35,274 nucleotides of DNA from Bacteroidales bacterium (GTDB taxonomy: Bacteria; Bacteroidota; Bacteroidia; Bacteroidales; UBA1715): NCBI GenBank assembly GCA_012519815.1, contig JAAYPM010000129.1, forward strand, positions 1 to 35,274. The letters are read 5' to 3'. Every line of letters begins with the position of its first letter. Positions within the stretch are counted from its first letter, which is position 1. The notes under the pieces are model-generated. The model saw only the letters and a list, made by a program, of their open reading frames with translations. It did not search any database and had not been told where the DNA came from. Below, piece after piece: positions 3,199 to 23,622 of the stretch. Made by a program: the position numbers and the translations under genes.

Positions 3199-4797
3199 TT
3201 ATTCTGCATTTGCCTTTCCGTGGCAATTTTTATATTTTTTTCCACTTCCACATGGACAATCGTCATTTCTGCCAATTTTCGGACCAACTCGTATTGGATT
3301 TGTTTTTTGTTGCTCTCGTGTGTCGTGTTGGCGAGGGTCAGAGTGTGAATACTCTTCTTTTCTTGCTTCCATTCTGCTTGTCTTTCTATTTTCACGAGCT
3401 TCTGTGGCTTCTGCTTGTAAAGGTATATGTGCTTTTAACACACTCGAAACTACTTCTTTATTCACTTCTTCAAGCATGTTTTGGAATAAATCAAATGATT
3501 CAAATTTATAGATAAGGAGTGGGTCTTTTTGTTCATATGATGCATTTTGAACCGACTGTTTTAAGTCGTCAAGTTCTCGTAAATGCTCTTTCCATGCTTC
3601 ATCAATACTTGCTAAAATAATTGATTTTAAGAATGAACGCACAAGTTCTTTTCCTTCTGTTTTTGCTGCTTTTTCTAAATTAGTCACCACACTAAAAACT
3701 CGTTTTCCATCAGAAATAGGAACAACAATGTTTTTATATGTGGCACTTTGTTTATCAAATACATTTTTAATTACAGGAAATGCTTGTTCTGCAATTGTTT
3801 TTGTGCGTCTATCATAAATAGTAAGTAAATGATTATAAATAGTTTCAACCATATCATTGGCAGAAAGCCGCAAATATTCTTCTTCAGAAACAGGGCATTC
3901 AAGTGAAAGAATTCGAAGTAACTCTATCGTAAAATCTTCATAATCAATAATTCCATGTGCGTTTTCTACAATACTTACACAAGTGTCATACATCATATTT
4001 GCAAAATCCACTGCAATCCGTTCACCAAATAAAGCATGTTTACGTTTTGTATATACCACTTCGCGTTGAGAGTTCATAACATCATCATACTCCAACAATC
4101 GTTTACGAATACCAAAGTTATTTTCCTCTACCTTTTTTTGAGCACGTTCAATAGATTTAGAAATCATGTTATGCTCAATAACTTCGCCTTCTTCAAGTCC
4201 TAACTTGTCCATGATTTTAGCAATTCTATCAGAACCGAACATTCTCATTAAATCATCTTCTAAAGACACATAAAAATCAGATGTTCCTGGATCTCCTTGT
4301 CGTCCTGCACGTCCTCTAAGCTGCCTGTCAACACGGCGAGAATCGTGTCGTTCTGTACCAATTATTGCCAATCCTCCAGCATCTTTTACTTCAGTTGTGA
4401 GTTTAATATCGGTACCCCTACCTGCCATATTTGTAGCAATAGTCACAGTTCCGGGTTTGCCCGCTTCGGCAACAATGTCTGCTTCTCGTTGATGAAGTTT
4501 TGCGTTAAGTACATTATGTGTAATTTTTTCACGAGTAAGCATACGTGATAATAATTCAGAAATTTCCACCGAAGTTGTTCCAACCAATACAGGTCGTCCT
4601 TCTTTTACAAGTTCTTTAACCTGATCAATTACCGCATTATATTTTTCACGTCTTGTTTTATAAACACGGTCGTTGTGGTCGTTTCTAATAATAGGTTTAT
4701 TTGTAGGTGTAACAATAACATCTAATTTATAAATATCCCAAAATTCTTTCGCTTCAGTTTCCGCAGTACCCGTCATTCCTGCTAATTTTTTATACAT
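3199..4797 (-). CDS. secA: SecA preprotein translocase ATPase, C-terminal part (downstream of in-frame TAG)
   Basis: This 532-residue open frame is the C-terminal half of SecA. It begins at the Met of [13 protein letters not shown], but SecA-like sequence continues unbroken upstream for 16 codons ([16 protein letters not shown]) to a TAG at 4846-4848. It contains the rest of the first nucleotide-binding fold, NBD2 with [10 protein letters not shown], the [12 protein letters not shown] and [14 protein letters not shown] helicase motifs, the helical scaffold/wing domains, and a C-terminal zinc-binding SEC-C tail ([14 protein letters not shown]). SecA drives post-translational protein export through SecYEG. 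Initiating here would give a protein without the Walker A/B motifs and preprotein cross-linking domain, so it should not function alone. It is in the same frame as the upstream half; the intact protein would be about 1,102 residues, normal for this phylum. Confidence 0.93.
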
Positions 4798-4845
4798 ACG
4801 GAAATAATTCTGAAGCGTAATAGTTGCGTGAGTTTGCGATGCCGC

Positions 4846-4848
4846 CTA
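4846..4848 (-). other. secA: In-frame TAG inside secA at a conserved Gln position
   Basis: Read on the minus strand, the codons are GTA AAA GTT TAG GCG GCA TCG CAA. No base is lost or gained: SecA-like sequence continues in the same frame on both sides. The expected codon is CAG, one transition away. Confidence 0.95.
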
Positions 4849-6507
4849 AACTTTTACCCGTTCTTTTGCCTCAATAGCCTGATGTAATCCATCAGAATAC
4901 CGGCGACCTTCCATAATACGCCCAGTTTGTTCATCAACAATTTTCACTTTATTGTCAATTACCACATATTCAATATCTTTTTCGAAAACCGTATATGCTT
5001 TTAATAGTTGATTGAGCGTGTGAACACGTTCTGATTTAACGGAATAATCTTGTGTTAAAGCATCTTTTTTTTCTGCTTTTTCAAGGGGTGGAATATCTAA
5101 TTTTTCAATTTCTGCAATTTCGCCACCAATATCGGGTAAAATAAAAAAGTCTTTATCATTGGTGTCGTCAGATAAAAAGTCAATTCCTTTATCAGTTAAT
5201 TCAATAGAATTGTTTTTTTCTTCAATAATAAAATACAGCTCAGCGGTTGCCAAGTGCATGTTTTTATTGTTTTCAGCCATATAGAAATTCTCCGTTTTTG
5301 TAAGGAGTGATTTCATGCCTTGTTCACTTAAAAATTTAATAAGTGCTTTGTTTTTCGGCAATCCTTTATGACATTGCAAAAGAAGTCGAGCACCTTCTTC
5401 TGCTTCTTTTTTATCTTCACTGGCAATAAGTTTTTTTGCATCAGCCAATTGCCGTGTAATGAGTGCTCTTTGTGCATTGTAGAGTTTTTCAACTTTTGGT
5501 CTAAATTCAACAAATAGTTCGTCTCCATTTGTTTTTCGAGAAATTGGACCAGAAATAATGAGAGGAGTACGGGCATCGTCAATAAGCACCGAGTCAACCT
5601 CATCAACAATGGCAAAATTATGTGTTCGCTGCACTAAATCTTCGGGGCTTATAGCCATATTATCTCGAAGATAATCAAAGCCATACTCATTGTTTGTTCC
5701 GTATGTGATATCTGCTGCATAGGCGTTTCGTCGAGCGTTAGAATTTGGTTCATGTTTGTCGATACAATCAACACGCAAGCCATGAAATTCAAATAAAGGT
5801 CCCATCCATTCAGAGTCACGTTTTGCTAAGTAATCGTTTACTGTTACTATATGCACACCTTTACCAGCAAGGGCATTTAAAAACACAGGTAATGTTGCCA
5901 CCAATGTTTTTCCTTCTCCCGTAGCCATTTCGGCAATGTTTCCTTTATGCAGAATATAACCACCAATAAGCTGCACATCGTAATGCACCATGTCCCATGT
6001 AATATAATTACCTCCCGCTTCCCATGAATTTGACCAAACAGCAGTATTATCTTGAATTGATACATAGTCTTTTTTTGTAGCTAAATCTCTATCGTACTCA
6101 GTAGCTTGTACCGTAATTTTAGTTTGCTCTGTAAATCTTCGTGCGGTTTCTTTTACAACAGCAAATGCTTCGGGTAAAATTTCTTCTAATGTTGTTTCTA
6201 TTTGCGTATCAATTTGTTTGTTGAGTGCATCAATTTCATCATACAATTTTTCTCTTTCTCCAAAAGAAAGCGAATCATTTTCATCGAGTTCGTGTTGATT
6301 TTTCTGAATCTGTTGTTCAAAAGTTGCAATAGAATCAGCAATAACCTTTTGTAATCTTATTGTTGCAGCACGCAGTCCGTCAGCAGATTCTTGTGAGAGT
6401 TTTTGTTCAAACTCTTTAACTTTTTCAACAATTGGGAGGGCGTTTTGTATGTCTCGTTCAGATTTATTTCCAACAAAAATTTTTAGTATAGAATTAAGTA
6501 AACTCAT
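4846..6507 (-). CDS. secA: SecA preprotein translocase ATPase, N-terminal part (ends at premature TAG)
   Basis: 553 residues beginning [19 protein letters not shown], the usual SecA start, and ending ...[10 protein letters not shown] immediately before a TAG. It carries the Q-motif region, Walker A ([14 protein letters not shown]), [11 protein letters not shown], the Walker [14 protein letters not shown] segment and the enlarged preprotein-binding domain typical of Bacteroidota. In other SecA proteins this region continues as [19 protein letters not shown], so the stop replaces a conserved Gln. A CAG-to-TAG transition (plus-strand G to A at 4848) explains it exactly. A -7 box lies 34 bp upstream and the gene appears monocistronic. 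Because SecA is essential, this is a sequencing error, a suppressed nonsense mutation, or one of two secA copies. Confidence 0.95.
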
Positions 6508-15663: not shown

Positions 15664-16536
15664 TTACACCACCGAAACATCAGAGGAAATTGCAGCATAT
15701 TCTCGTGGCGTGCATTTTATTTTTGCTTTAAATAATCTATTAAAATGTGACTGATTATTAAAACCACATAAAAGCGAAATTTCTGAAATAGAATATTGCG
15801 TGTCTTTCAACAATCTGCACGCATGTTGCAATCTATAATCGTGTAAAAATTCCACAAATGTTTTAGCTGTTTTTTGTTTAAAAATACGGCTAAACGTAAT
15901 TTCTGTCATATGTAAAAAAGAAGCTATAGATTGTAGAGTTATTTTTTCATGAAAATGATTTTCGATATACGAATATGCCGTATTCATAATAAGCGAACGT
16001 TTATCAAGAGCATCGCATTTTATTGAAGACAAAACAGTGTATTCGCTGCGATTTTTTGATAAAACATGCAAAATTTCCATTAATTGAATAAAAGCATCAA
16101 ATCCTGATTTTTCTGCTAATTCACAAATTTTATCATACACAGCAAGAATTACCTCTTTAGAAAAAGCAACACCTTGCGAAGAATCATGCAACAATTGCTG
16201 AACCGCATGTAAAGCCTTACGTTGCAACAAATCGTCAGAAAATAATTCTCTATGAAACTGAATAGTATATTCCTTTACGTTCACATTTTTGCACACATTA
16301 CGTTTCCATACATGAGGCAAATTTGGTCCTATAAGTACTAATTCTAAATCACTAATTATATGCCGATGGTCGCCAACTATTCGCTGTGCACCTTCTGCAT
16401 TTACAATAAGATTTAATTCATATTCTCTATGAAAATGCTCGGGAAAATCAAATTCTTTATTTTTACGAGCCAACACAAGCAAACAATCAGCTTGCGTTAA
16501 AGGGGTAGATTCATGAAAGGGATGCGAAACGCTCAT
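15664..16536 (-). CDS. AraC-family transcriptional regulator of the mannoside locus
   Basis: 290 residues. The N-terminal 1-140 form a cupin-type sugar-sensing domain (FDFPEHFHREYELNLIVNAE, VGDHRHIISDLELVLIGPNL, PHVWKRN), and the C-terminal 100 residues contain two AraC helix-turn-helix units (KITLQSIASFLHMTEITFSR and SISEISLLCGFNNQSHFNRL, then FKAKIKCTPREY). It is divergent from the GH5-transporter-GH130-epimerase genes across 177 bp, so it very probably controls them in response to a mannoside. This is the sensor type used where uptake is by an inner-membrane symporter rather than an SusCD/hybrid two-component system. No second regulator is seen. Confidence 0.93.
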   Translation of the reverse strand: MSVSHPFHESTPLTQADCLLVLARKNKEFDFPEHFHREYELNLIVNAEGAQRIVGDHRHIISDLELVLIGPNLPHVWKRNVCKNVNVKEYTIQFHRELFSDDLLQRKALHAVQQLLHDSSQGVAFSKEVILAVYDKICELAEKSGFDAFIQLMEILHVLSKNRSEYTVLSSIKCDALDKRSLIMNTAYSYIENHFHEKITLQSIASFLHMTEITFSRIFKQKTAKTFVEFLHDYRLQHACRLLKDTQYSISEISLLCGFNNQSHFNRLFKAKIKCTPREYAAISSDVSVV

Positions 16537-16713: not shown

Positions 16714-17841
16714 ATGAAACAAAAACTTTTTCCTATTGTATATATTATGGCTCTTCTTTCTATTAATTCTTGTTCTGAACAAACAAAAAAATCTGATGCA
16801 CACAACAAAAACGCACACATTTCTATTGAAGGGAATGCGTTTGTTTGTAATGGTACAGAAATATATTTAAATGGTGCAAACACTCCATGGGACAAATGGA
16901 ATGACTTTGGCGGAGAATATGACAGTGTGTTTTGGGAACAAGAAATGAAAAATCTTGCAGACAACGGAATGAACAGTACGCGTATTTGGATTAGTTGTGA
17001 TGGTGAGGGACAACCATTTATAGCTGAAAATGGAAGATGCGAAAAGCCTACTGAAGCATTTTGGAACAATCTTGACCACATGCTGTTTCATGCAGAAAAA
17101 AATGGCATATACATTATGGCAGCTATTATGTCGTTTGACCACTTTAAAGACGAAAATGAAAATTACAAAGGTTGGAGAGCTATGATTATGGATAGTGCTA
17201 ACATTCAACTTTTTATAAAAAATTATGTATTAGAACTTGTTTCTCGTTATTCTCATAATCCGTATTTTTTCTCTATTGATTTATGTAACGAACCCGAATG
17301 GATTCATGAAAACAAAGAATGTGGACAAATTCCTTGGAAACATTTACAACAATATGCGGGATTATGTGCTGCTGCTATTCATAAAACACAAACTCCTATT
17401 TTGGTTTCAATAGGTGCCACTTCGGTAAAATGGGCAAGCGATGTATATGAAAATGGGAATATTTGGAGCGATGAAAATTTGCAACTTCATACAAACAATG
17501 ACTCTTTGGCATATATGGATTATTGGCATATACATTATTATAGTTGGATGCGAGATTTTTTTAGTAGTCCTTTTGAAAAATCCCCAAACGATTATGCACT
17601 CAACGATAAACCTGTAATAATTGGAGAAACTCCCGGCAGAGCAGAGTATTATGGATTTGATATTTCGCTCGAAGAAATATTTGAAAAACCCTATACATTA
17701 GGATATTCTGGTGTTATGGTATGGACTTCAAACGACGCTGGAATTGGCGATTTTGGGAGTCTTTCTACATTTGGACACGCCTCAAAAGCTTTTGCCGAAA
17801 AATACCCGCAGTTAATTCATAAAAAAAATCAAAATAATTAA
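16714..17841 (+). CDS. GH5-family endo-beta-mannanase-like lipoprotein
   Basis: 375 residues. The signal peptide ends in INSC with Cys 20 as probable lipidation site, so the enzyme is membrane-anchored outside the cytoplasm. The rest is a single (beta/alpha)8 glycosidase domain of the GH5/clan-A type: NGANTPWDKWNDFGG, NSTRIWIS, SIDLCNEPEW with the acid/base Glu at 193, DYWHIHYYSW, and VIIGETPG with the nucleophile Glu at 305. The product most likely cleaves beta-1,4-mannan or glucomannan to oligosaccharides. The mannan assignment rests mainly on neighbours (GH130 pair, epimerase), not on subfamily motifs; cellulose-like glucan is the alternative. It is 11 bp from the transporter gene. Confidence 0.82.
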   Translation: MKQKLFPIVYIMALLSINSCSEQTKKSDAHNKNAHISIEGNAFVCNGTEIYLNGANTPWDKWNDFGGEYDSVFWEQEMKNLADNGMNSTRIWISCDGEGQPFIAENGRCEKPTEAFWNNLDHMLFHAEKNGIYIMAAIMSFDHFKDENENYKGWRAMIMDSANIQLFIKNYVLELVSRYSHNPYFFSIDLCNEPEWIHENKECGQIPWKHLQQYAGLCAAAIHKTQTPILVSIGATSVKWASDVYENGNIWSDENLQLHTNNDSLAYMDYWHIHYYSWMRDFFSSPFEKSPNDYALNDKPVIIGETPGRAEYYGFDISLEEIFEKPYTLGYSGVMVWTSNDAGIGDFGSLSTFGHASKAFAEKYPQLIHKKNQNN

Positions 17842-17852
17842 AATCACACCTC

Positions 17853-20129
17853 ATGAAAAATTATCTTCCGTTTCGAGAAAAAATTGCATACGGCTTTGGC
17901 GACTTAGCATCGGTTTTATATTGGCAAACATTTATGCTGTATTTTACCTTTTTTTATACTGATGTTTTTTTAATGCCCGCAGTAGCAGCTGCAACTATGT
18001 TTTTAATTTCCCGCTTATTTGATGGCTTTAATGACCCAATTATGGGAATTATTGCCGACAGAACCAATACCCGATGGGGAAAGTTTAGACCATATTTACT
18101 ATGGTTTTGCGTGCCTTTCGCCATTGTTGGCGTACTCACATTTACCGTACCCGATTTTGAACATCAAGGCAAAATGATTTGGGCATACAGCACATTTATT
18201 CTTATAATGGTGCTCTATACAATTATAAATATTCCATACACTTCGCTGCTTGGTGTAATTTCTCCTAATTCTGCTGAACGAACAACGGTTTCGTCGGTGA
18301 AATTTATTTTTGCCTTTGCAGCAGGAATTATTATTTCGGCAACATTATTACCTATGACTCAATATCTTGGAAAGAATGACGAAAGCATAATGGTTGCTAA
18401 AATTCAAAATGATTCTATTATTATTAGCGAACAAAAAAGAGGCGTTTCTACATTTTTACTTACAGCAAAAGATGATAAAGAAAACACAACTCTGCATGAA
18501 ATTCGCTTTACCGTTATTCCCAATGATAACAATACGCCGCGTGTAGCAAAAACACCACAAACTATTATTACAGACAAGCAGTTTGAAGATATACATATTC
18601 CTTGTACCGACATTTTTTTCGGCACGGTTCATTCAAATTTCACCTATCAGGTAACAAGTTCAAATCCTGATTTTGTTTCCTGCAAAATTACACAAGATAC
18701 ACTGCTGAAAATTTCAAAAAAATCAAATCAAGAATTAGGATTTGCAGATATAACCCTAAGTGCAATAGATAAAAAATGGGGCGAAACATCTACCTCGTTT
18801 TCTTTTCATGTGTCTGAAAACACAAATTCTTTTCCAAAAGTAATTGATTCTGTAAAAACAAAAATACTCTCCATAGGATTTGCAAAACACAGCATTGATG
18901 TTGCTCAACTCTTTAGCGATGATGATAATGATAAATTAACATATTCGGTGGTTTCAAACAATCCAGATATTTTAGATCCAATACTTACAAATTTATCAAT
19001 TCTTGAGTTAGATGAGTTAAAAAGTGGTGTTGCTGATATTACCATTACAGCAAATGATTTAAAAGGCGGAAAAGCAGAGCATACAATTCGCTTTTTTATA
19101 GCAGATTCACAAAACAATGCTCCTTTTGTAATTGAAAAAGAAATTGGATTTGAAGCACTCGAAGGATTTGGTTCTGACACATTATTGTTATCTGATTTCT
19201 TTTATGATATTGAAAATGACGCTATTTCATATGAACTTGTGGTTGTAAATGAAGCAAAAGGCTGGTCTCGCTTTTTCATGATTATTGGAGTTGCAGCTAT
19301 TATCTTCTTTTTAATTGCTTTTAAAGGAACCAAAGAACGCGTGCAACCTCCAAAAGGACAAACATCTTCAATAAAAAAAGATTTATGGCAGTTAATAACT
19401 AACAAACCATGGCTTATAATGTTAGCAACAACTATTACATTTATTTTATTTGTTGCCATTCGAGGAAGTGTTACTGTTCACTATTTTAAATATATTATTG
19501 GTCATCAAGTGCTTGATTTACCTATTTTGGGTAAAAAAACATACGATTTTAATGTATTAACTTCTATTTATAACACTATAGGTCAGGTGGCGTCGTTGCT
19601 TGGCGTGTTTGCGGTTGGTTGGTTTGCAAAATCATTTGGAAAAATTAAGGTATTTATTACATTTTTTATAATTGCCATTATTTCAACGGCAAGTGTGTTT
19701 TTTTTAGATGCCGATAATTTAGGATTAATTTACTTTTTACAAATTACAGGCTCGTTTACTGGTGGACCATTAAGCGTGTTGCTTTGGGCAATGTATGCTG
19801 ACATTGCCGATTACTCGGAATGGAAAAATGGCAGACGTGCCACTGGACTTATTTTTTCGGCATCTACTATGTCGCAAAAAATTGGCTGGGCTGTAGGGGC
19901 GTTTTTAGCTCTTACGCTTATGGCACAAGTTGGATTTGAACCAAATCAATTACAAACAGCAGAATCTACTCGCGGATTATTACTTTTATTTACGCTTATT
20001 CCTGCAGGAATTGGTATTGTTTCTATTCTTATTATTTTGTTGTATCCGCTTAATGATACACGAGTAAAAGCAATGGAACTTGAACTAATGCAACGTAGAG
20101 ATGAAGAAAATAATATTATAACAACTTAA
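17853..20129 (+). CDS. GPH-family sugar:cation symporter with a large periplasmic insertion
   Basis: 758 residues; family members are usually about 450-480. TM1-TM5 occupy residues 1-170 with the cytoplasmic MFS-like motif ADRTNTRWGKFRP between TM2 and TM3. TM6 begins near residue 470 (WSRFFMIIGVAAIIFFLIAF), followed by GTKERVQPPKG, and TM7-TM12 follow with DIADYSEWKNGRRATG. Deleting residues 177-468 leaves a normal transporter of about 460. The family imports di- and oligosaccharides with H+ or Na+. Placed 11 bp after the GH5 gene and 11 bp before a GH130 gene, it should import mannobiose or mannosyl-glucose. The insertion is described separately. Frame and base composition are continuous through it, so it is not an assembly join by any sign I can see. 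Confidence 0.9.
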   Translation: MKNYLPFREKIAYGFGDLASVLYWQTFMLYFTFFYTDVFLMPAVAAATMFLISRLFDGFNDPIMGIIADRTNTRWGKFRPYLLWFCVPFAIVGVLTFTVPDFEHQGKMIWAYSTFILIMVLYTIINIPYTSLLGVISPNSAERTTVSSVKFIFAFAAGIIISATLLPMTQYLGKNDESIMVAKIQNDSIIISEQKRGVSTFLLTAKDDKENTTLHEIRFTVIPNDNNTPRVAKTPQTIITDKQFEDIHIPCTDIFFGTVHSNFTYQVTSSNPDFVSCKITQDTLLKISKKSNQELGFADITLSAIDKKWGETSTSFSFHVSENTNSFPKVIDSVKTKILSIGFAKHSIDVAQLFSDDDNDKLTYSVVSNNPDILDPILTNLSILELDELKSGVADITITANDLKGGKAEHTIRFFIADSQNNAPFVIEKEIGFEALEGFGSDTLLLSDFFYDIENDAISYELVVVNEAKGWSRFFMIIGVAAIIFFLIAFKGTKERVQPPKGQTSSIKKDLWQLITNKPWLIMLATTITFILFVAIRGSVTVHYFKYIIGHQVLDLPILGKKTYDFNVLTSIYNTIGQVASLLGVFAVGWFAKSFGKIKVFITFFIIAIISTASVFFLDADNLGLIYFLQITGSFTGGPLSVLLWAMYADIADYSEWKNGRRATGLIFSASTMSQKIGWAVGAFLALTLMAQVGFEPNQLQTAESTRGLLLLFTLIPAGIGIVSILIILLYPLNDTRVKAMELELMQRRDEENNIITT
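18381..19256 (+). other. Cadherin/Ig-like insertion domain in the symporter's TM5-TM6 loop
   Basis: Residues 177-468 of the symporter, predicted periplasmic. The repeating pattern is F(S/Y)DxxNDxLTYxVxSxNPD...GxADITxTAxDxxG....xxFxV. Four pieces are seen: residues 177-226 carry only the second half of the unit (VSTFLLTAKDDKENTTLHEI); 227-328 are complete though diverged (FTYQVTSSNPDF, GFADITLSAIDKKWGE); 329-420 are complete (DVAQLFSDDDNDKLTYSVVS, GVADITITANDLKGG); 421-468 carry only the first half (LLLSDFFYDIENDAISYELV). The first and last pieces together would make one unit, so the block may close on itself with both ends at the membrane. Confidence 0.72.
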
Positions 20130-20140
20130 ACTTAAAGAAA

Positions 20141-21130
20141 ATGGCTACAATTATTGGAAACGATTTAGGAAATATTCCTTGGGAAGAAAAACCGCAGGCA
20201 TGTAACGATGTTATGTGGCGATACAGTAAAAATCCTATTATTAATTGGAACCCTATTCCAACCGCTGCACGCGTATATAACAGTGCAATGGCTCCCTACA
20301 AAGATGGATTTGCAGGAGTATTTCGGGGTGATCAAAAAAATGGACGAGCTACTCTTTTTGCGGGTTTTAGCAAAGATGGTATTACCATTGATTTGAATCC
20401 CACTCCAATTGCATGGGTTGACGAACAAGGAGCGCCTGCACCAACAAGTTATTCATACGACCCACGAGTTGTGGAAATTGACGGTGTGTTTTACATTACA
20501 TGGTGCGACGATATGCAAGGTCCTTCAATTGGTTTAGGAAGAACAACCGACTTTAAAACATTTATCCGTATGCCAAATCCACTTATGCCTTATAATAGAA
20601 ATGGCGTATTGTTTCCTCGGAAAATCAACGGAAAATATTTCTTATTAAGTCGTCCAAGCGACACAGGGCACACTCCTTTTGGTAATATTTTTATAAGCGA
20701 TAGTCCTGATATGATTCATTGGGGAAATCATGCCTTTGTTATGGGAAATGGCGGACAAGGTTGGTGGCAAGGTACTAAAATTGGTGCTGGTCCGGTTCCT
20801 ATTGAAACAAAAGATGGTTGGTTGTTGTTTTATCATGGCGTTTCTAACACATGCAACGGGTTTGTGTATAGTATAGGTGCTGTTGTTTTAGACCTCAACA
20901 ATCCACGTAAGGTGTTGTACAGAACACGCGATTATCTGTTAACACCCGAAAAACAATATGAAACTGTTGGATTTGTGCCAAATGTTGCATTTCCATGTGC
21001 AAACATATATGATGCAAAAACTGGAAGAATAGCTATTTATTATGGTGCTGCAGATACATATACGGCAATAGCATTTTGTCAAGTAGATGAAATTTTAACA
21101 TATATAAAAGCTAATTCAGAAGTTTTTTAA
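20141..21130 (+). CDS. GH130 beta-1,4-mannooligosaccharide phosphorylase-like protein
   Basis: 329 residues, the short form of GH130 (subfamily 2-like by length and motifs). A five-bladed beta-propeller is suggested by repeats such as YNSAMAPYKDGFAGVFRGD, SYDPRVVEIDGVFYITWCDD, GVLFPRKINGKYFLLSRPSD, GAGPVPIETKDGWLLFYHGV and CANIYDAKTGRIAIYYGAAD. Asp 107 in SYDPRV is the expected general acid. Family members phosphorolyse beta-1,4-mannooligosaccharides from the non-reducing end to release mannose-1-phosphate, and this is the best guess here; some relatives act on mannosyl-N-acetylglucosamine. There is no signal peptide, so it is cytosolic. It lies 11 bp after the transporter gene and 66 bp before a second GH130. 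Confidence 0.9.
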   Translation: MATIIGNDLGNIPWEEKPQACNDVMWRYSKNPIINWNPIPTAARVYNSAMAPYKDGFAGVFRGDQKNGRATLFAGFSKDGITIDLNPTPIAWVDEQGAPAPTSYSYDPRVVEIDGVFYITWCDDMQGPSIGLGRTTDFKTFIRMPNPLMPYNRNGVLFPRKINGKYFLLSRPSDTGHTPFGNIFISDSPDMIHWGNHAFVMGNGGQGWWQGTKIGAGPVPIETKDGWLLFYHGVSNTCNGFVYSIGAVVLDLNNPRKVLYRTRDYLLTPEKQYETVGFVPNVAFPCANIYDAKTGRIAIYYGAADTYTAIAFCQVDEILTYIKANSEVF

Positions 21131-21196: not shown

Positions 21197-22366
21197 ATGT
21201 TTTCAAAATCAGCAAGTGAAGTTATTTCTATTTTAAAAAATGAATACGAAACTATTATACGGCAGCCAAATAGTCCGGTAGCAGAATATAATGGTATATA
21301 TACACGATACAAAAATCCTGTTCTTACCGCACAACATATTCCATTATCATGGAAATATGATTTTAACACTACACGAAATCCATATATGATGCAACGTATC
21401 GGTGTTAATGCTGTATTTAATGCAGGAGCCATGAAATTCAATGGTAAATATATTTTATGTGCTCGTGTTGAAGGCTGGGATAGAAAATCATTTTTTGCGA
21501 TTGCCGAAAGTGATACGGGAATTGATAATTTTACATTTTGGGACGAACCAATACAATTGCCACAAACGAACGAACCCGATGTGAATGTGTATGATATGCG
21601 TTTAACACAACATGACGATGGTTTTATATACGGCATTTTTTGTACAGAACGGAAAGACCCCAATGCACCGCAAGGAGATACAAGTGCTGCAATTGCAAAT
21701 GCCGGTATAGTACGCACAAAAGATTTAAAACAATGGGAACGCCTTCCCGACCTTATTTCAAATACTGGTCAGCAACGCAATGTGGTAATGCATCCTCATT
21801 TAATAAACGGAAAATACGTGGTTTACACTCGTCCACAAGACGGCTTTATTGAAGTAGGCTCTGGTGGAGGCATTGGAATAGGATACATTACTGACATGAA
21901 AAATCCTGTGGTGGAACAAGAACATATTATTCATAATAAACAATACCATACGGTGTATGAATTAAAAAATGGACTTGGACCAGCACCAATTAAAACTCCA
22001 AAAGGATGGCTGCATTTAGCTCATGGGGTTAGAAACACTGCCGCTGGACTGCGATATGTGTTGTATATGTTTATGACCGATTTAAAAAATCCTGATAAAA
22101 TAATTGCAACTCCTGGCGGATATTTTTTAGCTCCCGAACAAGATGAACGCATTGGCGATGTGTCAAATGTTGTTTTTTCAAACGGCTGGATTGTTGATGA
22201 CAATAACACCGTTTTTATATATTATGCATCATCAGACACACGCATTCATGTGGCGGTTTCTACCGTTGAAAGATTAGTGGATTATTGCATAAATACACCT
22301 CAAGACAGCTTTAAAAGCAGCGATTCTGTGCAAAAAATTAGTACACTTATTCATAATAACAAGTAA
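21197..22366 (+). CDS. GH130_1 4-O-beta-D-mannosyl-D-glucose phosphorylase
   Basis: 389 residues, the length of GH130 subfamily 1. It has the long N-terminal extension of that group (residues 1-60, with YIARYKNP-like TRYKNPVLTA), the Asp 133 general acid in VYDMRLTQHDDG, and the phosphate/sugar-binding blocks MHPHLINGKYVVYTRPQDGF, GGGIGIGY, GLGPAPIKTPKGWLHLAHGV and FIYYASSDTRIHVA. The characterised enzyme of Bacteroides fragilis phosphorolyses mannosyl-glucose to mannose-1-phosphate plus glucose. It is cytosolic. The directly following epimerase gene supplies its substrate from mannobiose, the same gene pair as in known mannan catabolic loci. It has a different subfamily and function from the GH130 just upstream, so it is not a recent duplicate. 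Confidence 0.93.
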   Translation: MFSKSASEVISILKNEYETIIRQPNSPVAEYNGIYTRYKNPVLTAQHIPLSWKYDFNTTRNPYMMQRIGVNAVFNAGAMKFNGKYILCARVEGWDRKSFFAIAESDTGIDNFTFWDEPIQLPQTNEPDVNVYDMRLTQHDDGFIYGIFCTERKDPNAPQGDTSAAIANAGIVRTKDLKQWERLPDLISNTGQQRNVVMHPHLINGKYVVYTRPQDGFIEVGSGGGIGIGYITDMKNPVVEQEHIIHNKQYHTVYELKNGLGPAPIKTPKGWLHLAHGVRNTAAGLRYVLYMFMTDLKNPDKIIATPGGYFLAPEQDERIGDVSNVVFSNGWIVDDNNTVFIYYASSDTRIHVAVSTVERLVDYCINTPQDSFKSSDSVQKISTLIHNNK

Positions 22367-22416: not shown

Positions 22417-23622
22417 ATGCTTCTTAAAGATGTAGTATATTATAAAGAACAGTTGCAAAATGAGTTGCATGCTATTTTAAAATACTGGAGTTCCGAAACA
22501 ATTAACCCAAAAACAGGACAGTTTTATGGAGAAATTTCCGGGGTTGGCGTGCCTGATATATATGCATCAAAAGGTATTATTATGTATGCCCGTATTATGT
22601 GGACTTTTTCGGCTGCGGCACAGTTTTATAATGATACACAATATAGTAAAACCGCAAATATTGCACGTGAGTGTATTGAAAATTCGTTTTTCGATAAAAA
22701 AAACGGAGGGTATTATTGGGAAATATCACATGATGAAAAACCAGTTGTTACAAAAAAACAAGTGTATGCACAGGCTTTTGTTTTATACGCATACGCAGAA
22801 TATTATAAAGCAACAAAACAACAACATGCATTAAATAAAGCATTAGATATATTTCATTTACTCCAAACTCATTGTTACGACTCGGTGCATGGGGGATATT
22901 TTGAAGCTTTTTCAGAAAATTGGGACAAATTAGATGATGTTCGATTAAGTGAACGCGATTTGAATCTCCCAAAAGGGATGAACACAAATTTACATGTACT
23001 CGAAGCATATACCTGTCTTTTACAAGCAACGCAAAATGCAGAGGTTTCTCATGCTCTCGAAAAATTAGTGTCGGTTTTCACAAAACATATAATTGACAAT
23101 AAAGGACATGTAGTTATTTTTTTTACAGAAAATTGGACTCCACAAACCCACGAAATATCATACGGACACGATATAGAAACATCATGGCTTTTATGTGAAG
23201 CATGTAAAACAATAAACAATAAAACGCTAATAGAACGAACTCGCCCCATTGTATTAAAAATGGTAGATATATTTTTATGCGAAGGATATGACGAACAGGC
23301 TCATGCGGTTTTATATGAATACAATACAAAAACAAAACATCTTGATACTGACCGACACTGGTGGGTGCAAGTAGAAGCAATGGAAGGTTTAGCACACGCA
23401 TATACTCTCACACAAAACAAAGAATATCTTACTGTCGCATTTTCTATTTGGGAATACGTATCAACATATTTTATAGATAAAACACACGGCGAATGGTTTT
23501 GGCGGGTTTCACAAAACAACATACCCTATCTTGAAGACCCAAAAATAAGCATGTGGAAATGCCCATATCATTCTGCACGAGCATTAATGCAAATGATAAC
23601 AAAGCTGCGAACAATTTTTTAA
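22417..23622 (+). CDS. Cellobiose 2-epimerase-like (AGE family) mannobiose epimerase
   Basis: 401 residues with an (alpha/alpha)6-barrel pattern of the N-acylglucosamine/cellobiose 2-epimerase family. Visible marks: YGEISGVGVPD, a GGYYWEIS strand, KQVYAQAFVLYAYAEYY, GMNTNLHVLEAYT, SYGHDIETSWLLCEA (His ligand) and DRHWWVQVEAMEG with His 314, and SMWKCPYHSARALM at the end. The enzyme interconverts the reducing-end mannose of mannobiose with glucose, giving mannosyl-glucose for the GH130_1 phosphorylase. It is cytosolic. It closes the mannoside operon; a promoter for the next gene lies in the following 75 bp, so the operon probably ends here though I see no terminator. Confidence 0.93.
   Translation: MLLKDVVYYKEQLQNELHAILKYWSSETINPKTGQFYGEISGVGVPDIYASKGIIMYARIMWTFSAAAQFYNDTQYSKTANIARECIENSFFDKKNGGYYWEISHDEKPVVTKKQVYAQAFVLYAYAEYYKATKQQHALNKALDIFHLLQTHCYDSVHGGYFEAFSENWDKLDDVRLSERDLNLPKGMNTNLHVLEAYTCLLQATQNAEVSHALEKLVSVFTKHIIDNKGHVVIFFTENWTPQTHEISYGHDIETSWLLCEACKTINNKTLIERTRPIVLKMVDIFLCEGYDEQAHAVLYEYNTKTKHLDTDRHWWVQVEAMEGLAHAYTLTQNKEYLTVAFSIWEYVSTYFIDKTHGEWFWRVSQNNIPYLEDPKISMWKCPYHSARALMQMITKLRTIF

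Follow-up and report, generated by a model that had tools for sequence, protein, structure and literature searches.

The stretch of DNA analysed here (the window, 35,274 nucleotides) contains a gene (17853..20129, forward strand) for a GPH-family sugar:cation symporter of 758 residues, recognized from its open reading frame, profile matches and structural model, whose TM5-TM6 loop carries an insert of Ig/cadherin-like units in a broken register. The insert starts with the second half of a unit, continues with two whole units and ends with the first half of a unit. The two halves very probably make up one circularly permuted domain, according to the structural models, so that the loop would be a ring of three domains. 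The full explanation that we favor, with a probability of roughly 0.45, is that this closed ring serves as a rigid periplasmic platform for positioning a partner protein.

Transporter core and insertion site

The 758-residue protein is a member of the GPH family, with a score of 362 bits against TIGR00792 (cut-off 231) and 272 bits against PF13347 (cut-off 27). Both alignments are divided into a stretch covering residues ~10-178 and another that starts at ~466. The first stretch belongs to residues 1-173 of the core (TM1-TM5; 17853..18371, forward strand; model helices 7-38 to 140-173), and the second stretch of PF13347 belongs to residues 469-758 (TM6-TM12; 19257..20129, forward strand). The core is broken after residue 173 by ~295 additional residues and resumes at ~470, while the equivalents of G173 and G470 are separated by 5-37 residues, mostly 6, in 84 of 99 aligned GPH proteins; the initial annotation, which had counted about 290 extra residues, agrees with residues 174-468 being additional relative to these proteins. 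In the AlphaFold2 model, TM5 ends at residue 173 and TM6 starts at 467 (helix 467-492).

The best structural matches of the core were MelB (Z 36-37), and the protein has the 12-helix MFS fold of the MelB type, with one MelB superposition giving Z 36.9 over 441 aligned residues. Residues R54, D57, and D61 of helix II are invariant among the relatives and align with R-x-x-D-x-x-x-D of MelB, a helix II pattern that we take to be the cation site. The core fold is common to both proteins and the insertion point corresponds to the MelB TM5-TM6 loop, but MelB has no insert. Besides, N126 aligns where MelB has an aspartate, suggesting that the sugar site differs. The TM5-TM6 loop is predicted to be periplasmic, because the N-terminus would be cytoplasmic as in MelB. 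Judged by its sequence, the protein is a GPH symporter of the inner membrane, and cation-coupled sugar transport is predicted. Its earlier assignment to the GPH symporters is borne out by TIGR00792, PF13347, and the MelB fold, and the proposed location of the insert, on the periplasmic side between TM5 and TM6, agrees with the MelB-type topology.

Repeat organization of the insert

The training set of a unit profile consisted of both whole units of eight relatives and excluded the window protein. Along the insert, this profile identified the second half of a unit (residues 174-225; 18372..18527, forward strand; profile positions 44-92, 26.3 bits; strands D, E, F, and G at 180-185, 188-193, 197-206, and 212-222), a first whole unit (residues 226-324; 18528..18824, forward strand; positions 1-94, 63.8 bits; seven strands), a second whole unit (residues 325-420; 18825..19112, forward strand; positions 1-94, 82.0 bits; seven strands), and the first half of a unit (residues 422-468; 19116..19256, forward strand; positions 1-46, 11.7 bits; strands A, B, and C at 433-436, 441-445, and 459-465). 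These boundaries lie close to those of the initial annotation (177-226, 227-328, 329-420, and 421-468), which had also regarded the two end halves as complementary. The profile, trained without the window protein, supports this complementarity: the ranges 44-92 and 1-46 adjoin without a gap and amount to exactly one unit, and the two halves, cut out and joined in native order, scored 46.7 bits over model positions 3-92, compared with 31.7 and 15.8 bits when scored separately.

Of the nine three-unit proteins, nearly all are split at model positions 44-47, and this split recurs in the one- and four-unit forms; in one protein (L077), the last half ends at position 38 because the search frame clipped it. 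The scores of the eight relatives were higher but not independent, since their own whole units were in the training set; the window protein was absent from training and therefore provides a clean test. According to a simple estimate for a 95-residue unit, a random cut would give ends that agree this closely about once in 20 cases, a figure for which the relatives, sharing ancestry, do not count as independent trials.

With Big_9 of Pfam, the best score in the window was 15.4 bits, below the cut-off of 23.6 bits, and only one of 16 units reached E below 0.01, the closest being in L077 (22.7 bits). The units are alike in fold to Big_9 and the bacterial cadherin-like repeats of secreted proteins, with weak profile similarity. 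Large secreted proteins contain Big_9-like units, and so does a GH5 enzyme encoded beside the GPH gene of a sister genus. This GH5 enzyme (L069:4206-6635) carries F5/8 type C, He_PIG, Big_9, and T9SS sorting domains, and a one-unit GPH gene lies two genes downstream of it. Profile searches of the insert gave no carbohydrate-binding family above its own cut-off, and no described family with this insert was matched in Pfam, NCBIfam, PDB sequences, or the open-access literature.

Predicted structure and closure of the ring

AlphaFold2 modeled the full protein with a mean pLDDT of 78.8 (19 sequences) and the isolated insert with a mean pLDDT of 86.7 (six sequences, the number that spanned the whole insert). 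Each whole unit consists of seven strands. The split unit likewise has its full set of seven in both models, with A, B, and C from the first half and D-G from the second. Single units superposed on known Ig-like domains with 2.3-2.4 Å over 85-94 residues (Z 9.2-9.9), consistent with a seven-strand sandwich, and the FcnA4 fucoidanase was the top Foldseek match; the Ig/cadherin-like nature claimed for the units in the initial annotation is thereby borne out. In an Ig-like sandwich, strand C is the neighbor of strand F. Strand C is confidently formed (459-465 in the full protein, 288-296 in the isolated insert), so the first half would need strand F from the other half. From these models we infer that the two halves pair with each other; both the strand pairing and the closure are predicted features.

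Compared with rod-like cadherins, the whole insert aligned over 260-290 columns with an rmsd of 21-39 Å and TMq of at most 0.28, and its TM-scores were no higher than the single-domain level, suggesting that the predicted array is bent rather than a rod. Such an array fits a ring, although a bent open chain would also account for this result. The closed loop with its split unit at the membrane, as first proposed, is therefore very probably correct in the models, in which seven strands are formed in the split unit and the array is not rod-like; the first proposal that the ring would lie over the mouth of the transporter is more conjectural, as are the sugar-capture and docking roles suggested with it. 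In the proposed arrangement, the chain would enter and exit the permuted (anchor) domain at the position of the C-D loop, with the ends of TM5 and TM6 in place of that loop, and the two whole units would span the natural ends of the permuted domain, closing the ring of three. In the model, strand C (459-465) passes directly into the TM6 helix (467-492), and the linkers of the anchor domain are short (~7 residues to TM5 and one to TM6), which suggests that this domain is rigidly mounted.

Distribution and number of units

Relatives from about four phyla carry zero, one, three, or four units at the same site, with the phylum names of metagenome-assembled genomes (MAGs) taken as recorded and open to binning errors. 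The insert-bearing proteins counted comprise five one-unit, nine three-unit, and one four-unit proteins; no two-unit form was seen among these 15, a small sample. A second species of the genus of the window has a three-unit form of 757 residues (69% identical), a one-unit form of 562-564 residues occurs in one sister genus (four genomes; L069, L072, L162, and L011), and another sister genus of the same family has an insert-less GPH protein of 473 residues. The one-unit proteins of the sister genus align to residues 5-217 and ~433-754 of the window protein with 58-70% identity. In the one-unit form, the order is second half, linker, and first half, so that one unit is present in circularly permuted form.

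Elsewhere in the order, outside this family, three units were found in four genomes (G331, G402, G403, and G160) and four units in one (G407), the four-unit protein (L159) having 866 residues. Among named genomes, the insert was found in a Phycisphaerae MAG (L077) and two further MAGs (L075 and L076). It is also borne by a Balneolaceae bacterium (L078), whose protein is cut by the contig end, and by Lentisphaera marina (L138), with one unit that matches the profile weakly (21.9 bits). Among 395 genomes sampled across the phylum, no further genome had the insert at E 1e-12, and the full-size insert was present in four genomes of an order-wide sample of 393, indicating that the insert is rare.

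The initial annotation had allowed that the insert could turn out to be a cloning or assembly artefact. This is not the case: the same architecture is shared by independent genomes, and we consider an assembly artefact practically impossible.

Several other irregularities were observed. The insert of the Phycisphaerae protein (L077:8502-9461) has ~24 additional residues in its first whole unit, which resemble a short internal duplication, with KVENQNK occurring twice. In f37, another family of the order, GPH paralogues carry an unclassified insert of ~140 residues (L185:2697-3131, L186:2742-3173, and L187:5034-5471). It looks beta-rich by eye, matched neither Pfam families nor PDB sequences, and was not similar to the unit profile. 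Its location at the same TM5-TM6 site shows that accessory domains have entered this loop on more than one occasion. A 37-residue insert of a different kind is present in the same loop of two GPH proteins from Opitutales/Puniceicoccales (L104 and L112).

Operon and pathway

The symporter gene is preceded by a gene for a GH5-like (apiosidase-type TIM-barrel) hydrolase (16714..17841, forward strand; PF13204 below its cut-off), a probable lipoprotein with LLSINSC near its N-terminus, which has an equivalent position in G001 and G002. Downstream are a GH130 phosphorylase (20141..21130, forward strand; PF04041, 245 bits), a second GH130 phosphorylase (21197..22366, forward strand; PF04041, 94 bits), and a cellobiose 2-epimerase-like protein of the AGE family (22417..23622, forward strand; PF07221 above its cut-off; NF041848 385 bits, below its cut-off of 800). 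An AraC-type regulator (15664..16536, reverse strand; PF12833) is divergent from the operon. A PADLOC search gave no match. Elsewhere in the window, secA (3199-6507, minus strand) has a single in-frame TAG that splits an otherwise open frame, for which a sequence error, a recent mutation, and read-through are indistinguishable.

The substrates are most likely beta-1,4-linked disaccharides (mannobiose, mannosylglucose, or cellobiose), as judged from the adjoining GH130 phosphorylases and epimerase. A mannan route of Bacteroidota consisting of a symporter, mannosylglucose phosphorylase, and epimerase has been described (Senoura et al. 2011, as cited in PMC5217682), and its GH130, epimerase, and symporter functions match the window operon; that account describes no insert in the symporter, unlike the window.

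The sister genus G002 has an equivalent GH5-like/GPH/GH130/GH130/epimerase operon, in which the enzymes are 55-81% identical and the GPH protein is insert-less, so that the insert is optional for the pathway. The gene for the first GH130 phosphorylase is kept next to both insert-bearing and insert-less GPH genes, and at other loci GH94 and GH130 phosphorylases adjoin GPH genes with and without the insert (the GH94 neighbors had no NCBIfam match at E 1e-10). A tie between the insert and a pathway enzyme was rejected, since these neighbors occur irrespective of the insert. The insert is an optional part of what is predicted to be an importer of beta-1,4-disaccharides, and stands outside the logic of the pathway. 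Nor does the absence of SusC/SusD from the window, which the earlier suggestion of a sugar-capture or docking role had taken into account, explain the insert: SusD homologues are present elsewhere in the genome, and in a sister genus the GPH protein of the same operon has no insert.

Evolution and selection

On a core tree built without the insert, the insert-bearing proteins are not monophyletic; a single clade was rejected (AU p 2e-6), and was still rejected after the two most distant proteins (L138 and L068) were removed (AU p 0.001). Presence and absence require seven changes by parsimony, at least three of them forced by well-supported branches, counts that do not distinguish gain from loss. 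The window protein, G001, and the protein from Balneolaceae group together on the insert tree as well as on the core tree, as expected if the insert was inherited vertically in this group and lost in insert-less neighbors. No donor of the repeats was found in the genome of the window (95% complete) at E 1e-5 outside the gene itself. The GH5 neighbor in the sister genus has a weakly related unit (E ~5e-9), which is not specially close to the insert.

Comparison of the window with G001 gave a dN of 0.52 and a dS of 1.42 (dN/dS ~0.37) for the insert, compared with a dN of 0.06-0.13 and a dS of 1.25-1.51 (dN/dS 0.04-0.10) for the core. The insert evolves fast, under relaxed yet still purifying selection. 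Its base halves are 56% and 62% identical between these two proteins, and its distal units 33% and 38%. The insert has no obvious conserved sugar-binding surface: its conserved positions are mostly fold residues, with the exception of W309 in the first whole unit (conserved in eight of nine proteins), the sole candidate for part of an exposed aromatic platform. The scarcity of conserved positions beyond the fold weighs against a conserved site for sugar, and favors a scaffold or a partner surface that changes fast.

Proposed function and alternatives

MFS transporters are mostly bare helical bundles. To our knowledge, the known MFS transporters with Ig-like domains in a loop, PepT1 and PepT2, carry whole domains in tandem, and their insertion loop is TM9-TM10 instead of the TM5-TM6 loop used in the window protein. 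The Ig-like domains of these mammalian proteins likewise lie in an extracytoplasmic loop; they bind the digestive enzyme trypsin, and transport persists after their removal (PMC4597091). The PepT1/PepT2 core belongs to the POT family whereas that of the window protein belongs to GPH, and PepT1/PepT2 have two whole domains in tandem, with no mention of permutation in the main text of that study. By analogy, the ring would be a rigid periplasmic platform fixed to TM5 and TM6 and dispensable for transport itself, which may position a partner near the importer, such as a periplasmic hydrolase or another membrane protein. This docking role is a guess, which we offer tentatively; no partner protein was identified from the gene neighborhoods, which are alike with and without the insert.

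Alternatively, the ring might bind oligosaccharides derived from mannan or cellulose and concentrate them at the mouth of the transporter, a role in keeping with an operon that handles beta-mannosides, with the ~140-residue insert in the same loop of L185, L186, and L187, as if this were a site for accessory domains, and with the Ig-like repeats of carbohydrate-active enzymes such as the FcnA4 fucoidanase. However, there is no conserved exposed aromatic platform apart from the candidate W309, the distal units diverge fast, and no carbohydrate-binding family exceeded its cut-off; sugar capture is unlikely, and less likely than a scaffold or docking role. It is just as unlikely that the insert is a tolerated decoration, that is, a slice from a widespread kind of secreted Ig repeat that sits in a permissive loop, kept since it is foldable and with little or no selected function. 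Its patchy presence on the core tree, its optional status within the same operon, and its fast divergence would all be expected of such a slice, but a dN/dS of ~0.37 together with intact frames in all cases indicates selection, at least for folding, and the insert has been kept through the long descent of the group of the window, G001, and Balneolaceae, on which both trees agree.

Pairing of the halves could also take place between protomers, joining two or more transporters in the membrane as a domain-swapped oligomer. Tandem titin Ig repeats are known to undergo a rare domain-swapped misfolding (PMC4862688), in which the start and the end of the chain likewise combine into a terminal domain, but in titin this is a rare misfold, while the window protein has its cut point encoded in the sequence, and distant genomes share it. 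The complementarity of the halves fits inter- and intramolecular pairing alike, as a swapped dimer would show the same sequence pattern. Against it, the monomer model of the isolated insert has confident strands in both halves, and the linkers of the one-unit forms are long enough for self-closure, so that we regard a swapped oligomer as quite improbable.

The insert looks like an optional add-on. An out-of-phase slice that rebuilds one domain would be a simple route for a repeat array into a loop with side-by-side ends, and would also let the array change its length harmlessly. These transporters may even represent a class with a self-closing Ig-like ring that grows and shrinks by whole units, with its anchor intact and moving with the transport cycle, a proposal that we consider rather doubtful; if it is true, the length of the ring changes (one, three, and four units were seen) without breaking the anchor domain joined to TM5 and TM6. 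The same operon with and without the insert, together with the one-, three-, and four-unit forms, provides natural controls, by which the role of the insert in sugar uptake is directly testable.
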